Under the pieces are notes generated by a model, which saw nothing but the letters and a program-made list of their open reading frames with translations, ran no database searches and was not told the origin of the DNA. Shown here piece after piece: positions 7,174 to 44,708 of a DNA stretch of 44,708 nt; position 1 is the first letter of the stretch; every line of letters starts with the position of its first letter. Position numbers and translations under genes: made by a program. The DNA comes from Candidatus Saccharibacteria bacterium RIFCSPHIGHO2_12_FULL_47_17. GTDB lineage: Bacteria; Patescibacteriota; Saccharimonadia; Saccharimonadales; UBA10212. Location of the stretch: assembly GCA_001790575.1 (NCBI GenBank), contig MGCV01000003.1:1-44708 (forward strand). The letters are read 5' to 3'.

Positions 7174-7250
7174 ACCATTCACCATTTACTGTTTACTTTG
7201 CGTTTACTATTTACTGTTTACCATGGAAAACAGTAAACGGAAAACTGTCT
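7174..7250. repeat. Copy of a TTTACTGTTTACC-type palindromic repeat
   Basis: Positions 7174-7233 are identical over 60 bp to 42864-42923, which lies inside a prepilin gene. The right part folds: GTTTACTGTTT and AAACAGTAAAC surround CCATGG. Here the copy is intergenic, between two convergent genes. Diverged relatives lie at 32215-32320 and perhaps 38119-38227. Confidence 0.8.
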
Positions 7251-8650: not shown

Positions 8651-9778
8651 ATGCCGGAGCTTCCCGAAGTTGAAACTATTAGAATTGGATTGGCTAAACT
8701 TTTGCCTAGTTTGGAAGTTAAAGATGTCTGGCATGATTGGCCGAAGTCGTTTCCTAATCCGCCAGCCAACGTCAATGCATTTTTAATCGATGCCAAAATT
8801 AAAGAGGTAAGGCGGCGAGCAAAGGTATTAATAATTGATCTTTCGACCAAATATTCGCTGATAATTCATCTAAAAATGACCGGCCAGCTGGTTTTTGTTG
8901 ACAAAAACCAGCAGAAACTAGAAACTAGGAAAAAGAAACTAGTAAAAAAAGCTAATTCCCAATTCCCAATTCCTAATTCCTCTGAAGCGGGACGCTTCGG
9001 TGGAGGGCATCCAACTGATTCGCTGATCAAAAAGTTGCCGGATAAATCCACGCGTGTCATCATCGAGTTCTATCCGAAAAAAGTATCGAGGGGCATGGGC
9101 TCGAGTACGATTCAAGGAAAAGGCGAGCAGCGAACTGAGTCGTATATGAAATACGGTGAAGGAGCAGCGCAGGATTTGACGCAGAAGCGTGCCAAGAGCG
9201 CCAGCGGAGCTGCTGGCTCTGCTAGCAGGCAGGCTGGTGCGGCCCATGGGCCTCGGCTGTTTTTTAACGATCAGCGGAAGTTCGGCTGGATGCGGCTACT
9301 GCCGACTTTGGAAGTTCCGGAAATTGATTTTATGAAAAAAGTCGGCCCGGAACCGCTGGAAGATGATTTTACATTCGAAGTCTTTGCCAACAGATTAGCC
9401 CGACGTCAAAAAAGCTCAATCAAAGCCGCGCTGCTCGATCAAACTGTTTTGGCTGGAGTTGGTAATATTTACGCCGACGAGTCGCTGTACGCCGCCAGAA
9501 TACACCCGGCTACTCCTGTTAAATCAATTTCTAAAGCCAAACTAGCCAATCTTTATTATGAACTGCGGATGATACTCCGTTTGGCTATCGAAGCTGGCGG
9601 CAGTACAGATAAGAATTACGTTGATGCCAGCGGTAAAAAGGGAAGTTATTTGAGTTTCGCCAAAGCCTTTCGCAAAGAGGGGCACCCCTGCCCACGCTGC
9701 GGCACACCAATTGAGAAGATAAGAGTGGCTGGGAGAGGTACTCATATATGTCCCCATTGTCAGAGGTTGCCGAAATGA
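8651..9778 (+). CDS. mutM: Formamidopyrimidine-DNA glycosylase with internal expansions
   Basis: Bifunctional 8-oxoguanine/FaPy DNA glycosylase and AP lyase of base-excision repair. It begins MPELPEVETIRIGL, so Pro2 is the Schiff-base nucleophile and Glu3 the catalytic acid. The C-terminal zinc finger has CPRCG and CPHCQ, and the H2TH segment includes LLDQTVLAGVGNIYADE. At 375 residues it is about 100 longer than usual. Two low-complexity insertions lie before the conserved FFNDQRKFGW: residues about 88-118 (AATTCC-rich DNA) and 145-200 (a palindromic repeat, 9113-9248). TATAAT lies 7 nt before the ATG. The following holA overlaps its stop codon. Whether the long form is active is not known. 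Confidence 0.92.
   Translation: MPELPEVETIRIGLAKLLPSLEVKDVWHDWPKSFPNPPANVNAFLIDAKIKEVRRRAKVLIIDLSTKYSLIIHLKMTGQLVFVDKNQQKLETRKKKLVKKANSQFPIPNSSEAGRFGGGHPTDSLIKKLPDKSTRVIIEFYPKKVSRGMGSSTIQGKGEQRTESYMKYGEGAAQDLTQKRAKSASGAAGSASRQAGAAHGPRLFFNDQRKFGWMRLLPTLEVPEIDFMKKVGPEPLEDDFTFEVFANRLARRQKSSIKAALLDQTVLAGVGNIYADESLYAARIHPATPVKSISKAKLANLYYELRMILRLAIEAGGSTDKNYVDASGKKGSYLSFAKAFRKEGHPCPRCGTPIEKIRVAGRGTHICPHCQRLPK
8911..9010. repeat. Low-complexity repeats inside mutM
   Basis: Contains repeated GAAACTAG units (about 8914-8945), repeated AATTCCC units (about 8954-8982) and a perfect hairpin GAAGCG-GGA-CGCTTC (8985-8999). It is read in frame and interrupts the MutM N-terminal domain. The base pattern is unlike the surrounding gene. 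Confidence 0.55.
9113..9248 (+). repeat. Two-hairpin palindromic element, copy in mutM
   Basis: Hairpin 1 has CGTAT-ATGAA-ATACG (about 9141-9155). Hairpin 2 is nested: outer GCGCCAGC (9198-9205) with GCTGGTGC (9233-9240), inner CTGCTGGC (9210-9217), loop TCT, GCTAGCAG (9221-9228). The same order and spacing occur at 41395-41525 with different stem sequences. The first half also matches 23512-23586 base for base over long stretches. Confidence 0.75.
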
Positions 9779-23493: not shown

Positions 23494-23603
23494 CGTTTAG
23501 ACAACGAAGTACAAGGAAAGCTTGAGTAACAGACTGAGATGTATGAAACAATACTTCGAAGGAGTAACGCAGAGCTTGACGCAGTAATTCGTTAGAATAA
23601 ACG
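23494..23603 (+). mobile_element. 110-bp palindromic element between the ssb SD and start codon
   Basis: Outer arms CGTTTA...AACGAA (23494-23508) and TTCGTT...TAAACG (23588-23603) are inverted repeats. The interior (23512-23586) matches the first half of the element in mutM (9113-9186), including GACTGAG, TGTATGAAA/AATAC and TTGACGCAG in the same order. It is non-coding and interrupts an operon that is otherwise tightly spaced. Confidence 0.75.
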
Positions 23604-41349: not shown

Positions 41350-42327
41350 ATGTTATCTAGGCTGTGGGCCTTGTACTTGAGCAAAGTTCAAGGAAGCCAA
41401 GGTGCGAAGCGAGCGAGGCGTATATGTAATACGTTGAGCGAGCTTCGCACGCAGCTGGCACCGCAATTTGCCAAGAGCATTGTCAGAGTTACTGGCTCTG
41501 CCAGTAAGCAGGACAATGCGGCACAAAGGCCACAGGGGTATACAGTTATTGAGGTCTTAATTGTATTAGCAATCTCCGGCGTAATTTTTGTCAGCGGGGT
41601 GGTGATGTTCAGCGGCCAAAGTAACAGCACCGCCTTTGAACAGAGCATGCAAGATACTAATTCCGAAATAGCCACCCGTATTCGCGGCGTCGGCTCGAGC
41701 CAATTCTTTAATACCGAGGGTTATACCTGTATAGTCAGCGGTAATCCAGCGCGGGCCATTCTAACACCTTCAGGCGGTGGCACGGGGCAGCAAGACTGTC
41801 TGGTTGTTGGCACGGCCGTGGAGGTGCCGACCGGTGCCAGCAACCTATATTTTTATGAAGTGCTGGGTAATCGCCAGGTTTACGGCCCCGGTAATAATCC
41901 GCTCGGCCCGTCCACCAGCCTAGCTGAGGCTAACCCAACGCCAGCAGTTGCCGAAGGTACAGATCTGACCTTTAGCTTCAAATTGGCCAGTGACGTGAAA
42001 ATAATTTCATCGAACATCGAAGCCATCGACGGCTCCAGCCTAGCCAGTAATCTGGTTAGTTTTTATATAGACTTTAGCGGCGAAGCACCGACGACCGGCA
42101 GCGGCGTGCAGACTTCGGTCGCCAAAGCCTATAATTATGAGTCAGCCGGACATGACACCAGTGGCGTAAAAAATTGCATCGAAGGCACAGGTTGCCAGGC
42201 GCCAACCGATTCGAAAGTCTGGAGAATTTGTTTCGAGAGCCCGTCAGGTAATCGCCGAGCCCAGATTGATATCACTAGTCAGCCAACCGGCGTAACCACC
42301 GAACTTAAATTCATTAATTGCACATGA
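41350..42327 (+). CDS. Prepilin-like protein with a long repeat-derived leader
   Basis: A 325-residue protein. The cleavage site is QG|YTVIEVLIVLAISGVIFV with Glu at +5. The leader of about 62 residues is far longer than usual (6-30); residues about 14-58 are encoded by the palindromic element 41395-41525. The mature part is Ser/Thr/Gly-rich with Cys pairs and ends with CT. An extended -10 box directly precedes the ATG. It is likely a minor pilin; the next gene overlaps by 4 bp. Confidence 0.82.
   Translation: MLSRLWALYLSKVQGSQGAKRARRICNTLSELRTQLAPQFAKSIVRVTGSASKQDNAAQRPQGYTVIEVLIVLAISGVIFVSGVVMFSGQSNSTAFEQSMQDTNSEIATRIRGVGSSQFFNTEGYTCIVSGNPARAILTPSGGGTGQQDCLVVGTAVEVPTGASNLYFYEVLGNRQVYGPGNNPLGPSTSLAEANPTPAVAEGTDLTFSFKLASDVKIISSNIEAIDGSSLASNLVSFYIDFSGEAPTTGSGVQTSVAKAYNYESAGHDTSGVKNCIEGTGCQAPTDSKVWRICFESPSGNRRAQIDITSQPTGVTTELKFINCT
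41395..41525 (+). repeat. Two-hairpin palindromic element, copy in a prepilin leader
   Basis: Hairpin 1: GTGCGAAGC (41402-41410) with GCTTCGCAC (41442-41450), inside it CGTAT-ATGTA-ATACG (41419-41433). Hairpin 2: GCATTGTC (41477-41484) with GACAATGC (41512-41519), inside it TTACTGGC-TCT-GCCAGTAA (41489-41507). All four stems are perfect. The order and spacing equal those in mutM. Confidence 0.8.
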
Positions 42328-42830: not shown

Positions 42831-43604
42831 ATGAGTAGTAAACAAAAGACAATCAAACCATTCACCATTCACCATTTACTGTTTACTTTGCGTTTACTAT
42901 TTACTGTTTACCATGGAAAACAGAAAACAGACCACCGAAAACGTACTGTGAACGGAAAACTGAAAACGGTTAAAGCTACATCTGGTTTTACAGTGGTAGA
43001 GTTGACTATAGCCACAGCGGTTTTTGCCGCAGTCCTGTTGGTCGGCCTGGTTAGTTTTCTGGGCGTCGGCAAAGTTTATTACAAAGGCGTCAGCCTGACC
43101 CAAACTCAGGCCGTGGCCCAGCAGATTCTGACCCAACTGACCGCCGATATCCAGTTTGCACCAACTATTGTGACGGCCAAAGCTACGGGCGATGGTTCCA
43201 GCCAGTTCCTCTGCCTCGGCAACATTCGTTATACATTTAATCTCTACCAAAAAGTCGATTTAGCCGATCACGATAATCAAAGCAAATTTGGCCTGCTGCG
43301 CGACAGCCTGCCGGGTAGCACCGGCTGCAACAGCCCGTTTGGCGATGGCGCCGTCTCGCTCAATAATCCAACCGAACTTTTGGGCAATAAAATGCGTCTG
43401 GCCAAGCTCAATCTGACCCCAGCCAAGGATGCTGCCGGCGGCAATGTGACCGACCTTTGGAACCTAGACGTCAAGGTAGCTTACGGCGATGACGATGTAC
43501 TAACGAACCCGGGGGTCGAGAATGTTACTTGCGACGCCAATCTAACCTCTACCCAATTCTGTTCGGTCAATTCACAGACCACAACCGTTAGCCGAGGTCT
43601 ATAG
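42831..43604 (+). CDS. Minor prepilin-like protein with repeat-derived leader (PilW-like)
   Basis: A 257-residue protein with site ATSG|FTVVELTIATAVFAAVLLVGL. The leader is about 52 residues; it contains FTIHHLLFTLRLLFTVYHG, encoded by the 60-bp repeat identical to 7174-7233. ATG 42831 follows the previous stop by 3 bp. The mature part is about 205 residues with three Cys, PilW-like in size. The leader reads as a second hydrophobic stretch, which may affect targeting. Confidence 0.8.
   Translation: MSSKQKTIKPFTIHHLLFTLRLLFTVYHGKQKTDHRKRTVNGKLKTVKATSGFTVVELTIATAVFAAVLLVGLVSFLGVGKVYYKGVSLTQTQAVAQQILTQLTADIQFAPTIVTAKATGDGSSQFLCLGNIRYTFNLYQKVDLADHDNQSKFGLLRDSLPGSTGCNSPFGDGAVSLNNPTELLGNKMRLAKLNLTPAKDAAGGNVTDLWNLDVKVAYGDDDVLTNPGVENVTCDANLTSTQFCSVNSQTTTVSRGL
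42864..42975. repeat. TTTACTGTTTACC-type repeat inside a prepilin gene
   Basis: Identical to 7174-7233 over 60 bp (42864-42923). The next 50 bp (AAAACAGAAAACAG, GTGAACGGAAAACTG) are complementary in style to the left half, so the element can fold. It is read in frame with no stop. Confidence 0.8.
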
Positions 43605-43613
43605 GTTATAATT

Positions 43614-44708
43614 ATGCTTATGCCAATTTTATTGGGAGGTCCGACCTTGGGAAAAGCAAAGAATTCTCTAACGAAAACTACAAAGTTTTACCTATCTTTT
43701 TTCAAGGTCGGACCTCTTCAAAGACGTAACCAAGCTGGTCTCACATCCGTAGTCGTAGTCTTTGTGCTGGTGCTTTTGCTGACATTGCTCTCCATCGGCT
43801 TCACCAAAGTCATGAACCGCTCGCTGCAATCAACTTCGTCCAACCAGCAATCCACCGCCGCAGGTTATGCCGCCCAGTCGGGTATTAACGACGCCATTTC
43901 TTATATAAAAAAGACCCTGCTAGCCGACCCCAGTGCCAACGTCTCGGCCACCAAATGCGATGATCTGCTCAAACAAGGTGCGCCACTGGCCAGTGCCTCA
44001 AAACTTGACGATGCCACCAATTACACCTGCCTACTGATCGATCCCACACCGACCAGCCTTTTTTATCAGGACTTGCCGCCTTATAAATCGCAGATAGTCA
44101 AAATCACTACATCGGCGCCGCTGTCCAGCCTGCTGTTCTCTTGGCAATCGACAAACGCCGAGCATAACCAGTTTGTACCCAATGCCGACGGCCAAACCTT
44201 GTTTGATGAAACGGTCTGGAGTAATAGCAAATACTCTCCAGTTTTGAGAGTTACGCTTTACCCGATCCCGGCCAACGCCGATATATCCGGTGTCCAGGCT
44301 GCGTCTAAGACCTTCTATCTATATCCGCAGACCGGTGGCGGCAGCAACAGCGTTTCATACAATTCGGCCAGCGGCTTACAGTCGGTTAATTGCGTATCTA
44401 AGAATCTCGGAGGCTTTTCCGGCAGTGCCGACTACGACTGCAATGTTGTCATTAATGAATTGCCCAGCGGCGCCACGGCTGCCTATTTCTATGCTCGCTT
44501 CTCGCCTTATTACGACAAGGCGGTGGTTAAAATTAAAGGCAACGACGGCGCGGCCCAACCGGTTAAGTTTGTTAATGTCCAGTCGGTCATTGACGTCACG
44601 GCCAAATCCGGCAACGCCACCAAACGCTTGCAGGCACGGATGGATTCCAGTACTACCACTGGCGGTGGTGATTTCAACATTGATCCCTCCAGCAATCTGG
44701 CACCGGAA
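43614..44708 (+). CDS. PilX-like pilus protein, 3' end outside window
   Basis: The frame is open to the window end (at least 365 codons). Sequence after the leader: RRNQAGLTSVVVVFVLVLLLTLLSIGF, one long hydrophobic helix as in PilX/GspK-type minor pilins, but without Glu at +5. Then a Ser/Asn-rich exported domain. The first 37 residues (PILLGGPTLGKAKN...FFKVGPLQ) are encoded almost wholly by the 81-bp element 43636-43716. ATG 43620 is an alternative start, 7 nt after TATAAT (43607-43612). Confidence 0.75.
   Translation, partial: MLMPILLGGPTLGKAKNSLTKTTKFYLSFFKVGPLQRRNQAGLTSVVVVFVLVLLLTLLSIGFTKVMNRSLQSTSSNQQSTAAGYAAQSGINDAISYIKKTLLADPSANVSATKCDDLLKQGAPLASASKLDDATNYTCLLIDPTPTSLFYQDLPPYKSQIVKITTSAPLSSLLFSWQSTNAEHNQFVPNADGQTLFDETVWSNSKYSPVLRVTLYPIPANADISGVQAASKTFYLYPQTGGGSNSVSYNSASGLQSVNCVSKNLGGFSGSADYDCNVVINELPSGATAAYFYARFSPYYDKAVVKIKGNDGAAQPVKFVNVQSVIDVTAKSGNATKRLQARMDSSTTTGGGDFNIDPSSNLAPE
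43636..43716 (-). mobile_element. 81-bp terminal-inverted-repeat element, copy B, in frame in a coding region
   Basis: Perfect 14-bp ends GAGGTCCGACCTTG (43636-43649) and CAAGGTCGGACCTC (43703-43716). It aligns along its length with copy A (20456-20537) in reverse orientation. It is read without a stop codon and, at 81 bp, keeps the frame. Confidence 0.8.

Follow-up and report, generated by a model that had tools for sequence, protein, structure and literature searches.

The mutM gene of Candidatus Saccharibacteria bacterium RIFCSPHIGHO2_12_FULL_47_17 contains a nested-hairpin element that lies in frame with the coding sequence. How did such an element reach a DNA-repair gene, and why has its fold persisted there? 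Palindromic insertions that keep the reading frame of protein genes are known chiefly from Rickettsia, in which neither their mobility nor the reason for their persistence has been settled. The window analysed here is a whole stretch of 44,708 nucleotides (contig MGCV01000003.1 of assembly GCA_001790575.1), in which the original prediction, made from the letters alone, described two hairpin copies that share the order of their parts, a TCT loop and paired stem changes. Here, we describe the full extent of the element, its relatives across CPR genomes, its terminal repeats and the covariation of its fold. In our assessment, the element very probably belongs to a family of CPR MITEs that is moved in trans, and its fold, once resident, is kept in place and is probably recognised by a factor. 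Both the spread and the persistence of the mutM-type hairpin element are now testable. Genomes and loci of the comparison set are referred to by our own G and L numbers.

Element copies in the window and in protein genes

The features shared by the two predicted copies were confirmed exactly from the sequence. In the nested hairpin, the outer stem is GCGCCAGC/GCTGGTGC in copy 1 and GCATTGTC/GACAATGC in copy 2, and the inner stem is CTGCTGGC/GCTAGCAG and TTACTGGC/GCCAGTAA, respectively. The intervals first proposed (9113-9248 and 41395-41525) cover real structure but only the inner part of the element, which runs to the limits given in the table and is closed in both full copies by a terminal stem of 13 bp. 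The 5' arm of this stem in copy 1 corresponds to the TAGGACTTACGC terminal inverted repeat (TIR) of young copies in other genomes. A partial third copy lies between rpsF and ssb, just upstream of ssb, and is common to G005 (orthologous copy L053:950-1036).

Element copies, their parts and host genes in the window
Feature	Position	Strand	Details
Full-length copy 1	9086..9256	+	171 nt, in frame within mutM; covariance model R1, 157.5 bits, E 2.3e-34
Copy 1, terminal stem P1, 5' arm (degenerate TIR), GAGGGGCATGGGC	9088..9100	+	From sequence; partner 9242-9254
Copy 1, terminal stem P1, 3' arm, GCCCATGGGCCTC	9242..9254	+	From sequence; consensus pairs columns 2-14/178-191
Copy 1, nested-hairpin arm	9198..9240	+	Outer stem, GGAG/GCAG internal loop, inner stem, TCT loop
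Host gene mutM (Fpg)	8651..9778	+	Pfam Fapy_DNA_glyco, H2TH, zf-FPG_IleRS; AlphaFold2 model
Full-length copy 2	41362..41535	+	174 nt, N-terminal leader of prepilin-like ORF; R1, 133.4 bits, E 1.1e-28
Copy 2, terminal stem, 5' arm, CTGTGGGCCTTGT	41362..41374	+	From sequence and fold; partner 41523-41535
Copy 2, terminal stem, 3' arm, ACAAAGGCCACAG	41523..41535	+	From sequence
Copy 2, nested-hairpin arm	41477..41519	+	
Prepilin-like host ORF of copy 2	41350..42327	+	N-methylation motif from residue 62; true start uncertain
Partial third copy	23503..23592	+	Long arm, without nested hairpin; R1, 77.0 bits, E 2.2e-15

Both full copies had also been placed in frame inside proteins. The host frames are indeed open across both, and copy 1 is certainly within mutM, but the start codon of the copy 2 ORF is uncertain. 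In several pilin genes (L203 of G006 and the ORF at 41350-42327 of the window) copies immediately precede the prepilin cleavage motif, so that the leaders are unusually long.

The mutM insertion can be compared with an empty site: the segment concerned measures 230 nt in G000, the window's own genome, and 59 nt in G001 of the same genus, a difference of 171, and G001 MutM has KDGR where that of G000 has a 57-residue longer loop, the flanks being 82-90% identical. Copies occupy the same place in mutM of G005 and G006 and are absent from many relatives, including G012, which is 85-93% identical to G006; this patchy presence indicates that gain or loss recurs at the mutM loop. In an AlphaFold2 model (mean pLDDT 69, from a shallow alignment) the insert, residues 146-197, lies between the beta strands at 135-140 and 202-206 and is predicted to be disordered, with pLDDT below 50. 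A second, low-complexity insertion in mutM, at 8906-8990 of the window (aattcccaattcccaattcc), is present in G001 as well.

The element also lies in frame and in sense orientation in UvrD (at two places), UvrC, RarA, PrmC, the dihydrouridine synthase Dus (DusB), PheT, an MGMT-like protein, Mur-type ligases, an aminopeptidase and prepilins; the names have Pfam support for those tested and were otherwise given by eye from the sequence. Copies inside ORFs number 27 in the sense and two in the antisense direction, by an ORF-based test that finds in-gene copies only where the frame is open. Most of the sense copies use one frame and encode a recurring shared peptide. Across 130 copies, open frames are more frequent on the antisense strand (148) than on the sense strand (60); sense readings have GRAVY values of -0.7 to -0.8 and antisense readings of +0.1 to +0.2, and hydropathy is the likely reason for the sense excess inside ORFs. 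Translated, the folding strand would usually give some 57 residues of hydrophilic, disordered peptide and, owing to this character, sense insertions in protein loops would be tolerated, as hydropathy and the AlphaFold2 model suggest. The length fits as well, since a body of 166 bp with a 5-bp duplication makes a 171-bp insertion, a multiple of three. MutM, UvrD, UvrC and DusB are examples of CPR proteins that carry 57-residue inserts whose transposon origin annotation and structure prediction should recognise. In a yjbR-like gene of G001 (L136:2083-2314), the copy has about 60 nt extra inside the element relative to G000.

Sense-only placement in genes, a conserved fold and insertion into core enzymes could also be expected of an intron-like or self-excising element that is removed from the RNA. 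However, the in-gene copies have open frames and keep the frame of the host; only three of 53 upstream sense genes overlap the element by at least 40 nt, so that few enter a closed element and genes interrupted by it are rare; many copies are antisense to both neighbours; and Rfam holds no matching ribozyme. We consider removal from RNA highly improbable.

Terminal repeats, mobility and distribution

Evidence for movement comes from young copies in other CPR families, which are 99-100% identical to one another and are located in AT-rich spacers. In G357, G393, G448 and G426 they are bounded by perfect TIRs, TAGGACTTACGC...GCGTAAGTCCTA, with 63 TIR matches in G357. Among 33 TIR-bounded units from related CPR genomes, 23 are flanked by exact 5-bp target duplications, against 1.6% for random pairing, and lengths of 3, 4 or 6 occur in two to three units each. 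These TIRs and duplications mark the family as a non-autonomous DNA transposon of the MITE type, whose terminal stem is its TIR. The elements are short (about 165-175 nt) and numerous, lack a transposase gene and have empty sites in relatives, in mutM (G001), UvrD and others. The element is about 165-170 bp long with TAGGACTTACGC...GCGTAAGTCCTA as its ancestral TIR, insertion duplicates 5 bp of target in related CPR genomes, and movement would have been by a transposase acting in trans.

One locus (L280:903-1059 of G426) has the same TIR around a wholly different interior (TGTCATCCTGAGC...GGAATGACA), and one transposase may therefore serve several MITE families. Loci with a single TIR, fetched as possible autonomous remnants, contained no recognisable transposase ORF, and a search of six genomes for DDE_Tnp_1 (IS4/IS5-type) gave three matches, none flanked by the TIR.

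Strand-specific folding with conserved mismatches would suit a different mode of transfer, in which a REP/RAYT- or IS200/IS605-type element is moved as a folded single strand by a Y1 (HUH) transposase, and Y1 genes do occur in the window's own genome and in 22 of the 61 genomes searched. Yet G008, G015 and G046 have no Y1 match while each holds at least 14 element matches, and perfect TIRs with 5-bp target duplications are not Y1 features. Contradicted by the duplications and absent from copy-rich genomes, a Y1 mobiliser was rejected, and we give this origin very little credence.

In Saccharibacteria the TIR is degenerate yet still paired, forming helix 1 of the consensus, and TIRs or target duplications are recognisable in at most three of 133 copies. 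These copies are old and their duplications are gone; mobility in this group therefore rests on homology and on empty sites. The full element found at the 3' site of rpmA in G001 and G015 (L181:1696-1867) has as its counterpart in G000 a hairpin with a TTCG loop (L006:560-620); this hairpin is probably the remnant of an internally deleted copy that now resembles a bidirectional terminator. A comparison of these loci had suggested that the terminal stem was a host terminator with the element inserted in its loop, a reading that was dropped because young copies show the stem to be the TIR.

A search of the genome and its relatives with a covariance model, as proposed with the original prediction, found 27 copies at E<1e-13 in the window's own genome, so that the mutM hairpin is one of about 30 old copies there. 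Within the order, model matches were found in 96 of 198 genomes, with at most 14 candidates scored in each, and in a phylum-wide CPR sample in 34 of 287, among them members of families beyond the class (lowest E 1e-31); gene calls were ORF-based, the copy sample is skewed to strong matches and the genomes are mostly incomplete. Some matches have a 125-nt form that lacks the nested arm. When 84,980 species were scanned for exact 21-mers, 11 Saccharibacteria contigs and one Verrucomicrobia contig were hit, the latter without a model match, and viral, phage and plasmid collections yielded no element copy. Rfam 15 scans of the window and several copies gave no relevant match at gathering or at E<=1, and neither Rfam nor the open-access papers searched on CPR repeats describe this element; within that literature the family is previously unreported in CPR, in line with the prediction of a new family resembling that of Rickettsia. 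Beyond that prediction, the family proves to be a MITE with TIRs and 5-bp duplications, CPR-wide, and mostly intergenic in either orientation.

Many of the genes that hold or border copies in G000 and its relatives serve DNA repair and recombination: mutM, uvrD (two sites), uvrC, rarA, an MGMT-like gene, xth, dinB, a lexA-like gene, ruvB, ruvC-ruvA, ssb, dnaB and comEC-yebC, a list made post hoc and without a background count. An opposite-strand gene that follows the element usually has its stop codon in the final 0-9 nt of the element's 3' end. The window also holds other repeats: a short direct repeat, TTCACCATTTACTGTTTAC / TTTACTATTTACTGTTTAC, at two distant sites (7178-7245 and 42868-42911), and an inverted repeat, GAGGTCCGACCTTGGGAAAAG / CTTTTTTCAAGGTCGGACCTC, at 43636-43716 with arms 39 nt apart, possibly another small repeat family.

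Covariation and the fold at orthologous sites

Single-copy searches of the window's own genome and 60 relatives matched many diverged copies, and 60 full-length copies were aligned (alignment A3). Their consensus has 60 pairs, which form a three-way junction in about 170 nt: the terminal stem P1 (12 consensus pairs), a long arm with regularly spaced internal loops, and the nested-hairpin arm. Paired cells amount to 90.2% compared with 69.7% after shuffling, and changes on both sides of a pair occur in 843 cells compared with 274, affecting 52 of the 60 consensus pairs. The covariation score was 0.591, against 0.221+-0.007 for 500 shuffles and 0.06-0.13 when partners were slid, its size being somewhat inflated because the structure came from the same alignment; on no measure did any of the 500 shuffles equal the observed value. 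Applied to 36 copies of other CPR families, with the alignment fitted to the model, the structure was 94.9% paired and scored 0.381 versus 0.117. The statistical test of pair covariation suggested with the original prediction came out for pairing: further copies exist, and the changes among them preserve it.

Mispairs are unequal, with 489 G-U and 155 A-C (about 3:1), and this excess identifies the strand named here as the folding strand. The asymmetry is equal whichever direction the neighbouring genes are transcribed. Post-insertion G-U/A-C changes, counted with respect to the transcribed strand, stand at 29:15 against 9:7, both from few events. The purine-rich internal loops are nearly invariant: the unpaired columns include tandem G.A/A.G (58-59/83-84), A.A (48/92) and G.G (143/163), and most tested positions are Watson-Crick in only 0-10% of copies.

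Paired stems could arise by mutational coupling without selection, if template switching between the arms at replication (quasipalindrome correction) kept them paired. This would account for paired changes in either orientation and for paired stem arms beside stop codons or start signals. It would also erase mismatches, however, whereas the near-invariant internal loops persist, and it makes no prediction of the excess of G-U over A-C; the conserved mismatches argue against template switching as the whole cause, which we regard as improbable.

Selection can be followed most directly at orthologous sites, that is, where copies share the same flanking genes in different genera, such as those before yebC, rpmA and ssb and between mraZ and rsmH. 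In 21 orthologous copy pairs (mutual closest matches among the sampled copies), 189 stem pairs have changed on both sides and still pair, compared with 42.9+-5.7 expected when the 3' changes are dealt out anew. The excess appears in coding (51 versus 11.9), tandem sense (84 versus 18.9) and antisense (20 versus 4.8) contexts and is present in convergent and divergent ones too, and orthologous pairs of the same genus at 79-88% identity already have three to five compensatory pairs. Since compensatory change exceeds chance at these sites, the fold has been kept in place, which gives the proposed selection for a folded DNA or RNA form firmer support than a comparison of just two copies could provide. 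Orthology was called from flanking genes and best similarity, some calls being weak with few copies sampled, and repeated insertion or conversion at one site could mimic in-place change.

If the element were no more than a selfish MITE, resident copies would not be expected to keep their fold. One explanation is that the element, though of mobile origin, is a host-functional structured RNA or single-stranded DNA site, for example for a global RNA- or single-stranded-DNA-binding protein, and that host benefit keeps the fold. Compensation in place across coding, tandem, convergent and antisense contexts, the near-invariant unpaired residues with their tandem G.A/A.G motif and the positions common to several genera (upstream of yebC, rpmA and ssb, for example) all favour this explanation. 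Against it, intergenic orientation is random (35 tandem copies sense, 32 antisense), sites are gained or lost within a genus (mutM, L181/L006) and the G-U to A-C ratio ignores the direction of neighbouring transcription, so that no single mRNA-level role fits. A host function of this kind is conceivable, although we lean away from it. The same strand folds irrespective of the direction in which neighbouring genes are transcribed, so a simple role as mRNA leader or terminator does not account for every copy; RNA made from the element itself, or transient single-stranded DNA, would do so.

Our favoured reading remains the trans-mobilised MITE; some cellular factor probably still recognises its resident fold where it stands, in the form of RNA or of single-stranded DNA. 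A bolder form, which we put forward tentatively, is that of a dual-coded resident: at some 30 sites per genome, several of them in core enzymes, the element may be maintained in two capacities, as protein that can be read and as a specific three-way-junction fold that a putative factor recognises where it lies, which would make a selfish repeat a cellular component. Two questions have thereby become testable, namely how enzymes encoded by minimal genomes tolerate a transposon inside them, and whether the host or only the element itself is served by the maintained structure.

Relation to known repeat families

Several bacterial repeat families share features with the CPR element. REP/BIME sequences associated with RAYT are 20-40 bp long and are mobilised in the Y1 manner without target duplication. 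Like them, the CPR element consists of dispersed palindromes with strand-specific folds, but it has a TIR and a 5-bp duplication.

ERIC, Correia/NEMIS, RUP and YPAL are described in PMC2229807 as bacterial MITEs that have TIRs, duplicate their target, fold stably as transcripts and are occasionally fused in frame. The CPR element is likewise small and non-autonomous, with TIRs and target duplications; it differs in being three-armed, where those families are described there as one long stem-loop, and in having other TIRs. The passages on them mention neither phylum-wide spread nor in-place covariation. The CIR repeats of Caulobacter and Brucella resemble the CPR element in their multi-armed conserved fold, but according to PMC2229807 they have two arms with a linker and no TIR stem and are not found inside genes, whereas the CPR element is three-armed, has a TIR stem and also occurs inside genes.

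The closest likeness is to the Rickettsia palindromic elements (RPE; Ogata et al.; PMC10969869, PMC2229807), which are described as palindromic repeats of 105-150 bp with terminal inverted repeats, found in intergenic regions and in frame inside conserved protein genes, where they encode a recurring peptide. The CPR element is also palindromic and TIR-bounded, occurs in both settings and encodes a recurring peptide. Nevertheless, it has other hosts, a three-way junction, TAGGACTTACGC TIRs, clear 5-bp duplications (marked as unknown for RPE in PMC2229807) and compensation at orthologous sites. Judged by these features, the CPR MITE appears to work like the Rickettsia palindromic elements and is likened to them, not filed as a member. 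What it adds to the Rickettsia case are recent copies whose TIRs and target duplications are defined, close relatives with empty sites, phylum-wide spread, and many old orthologous copies in which selection on the fold can be measured.
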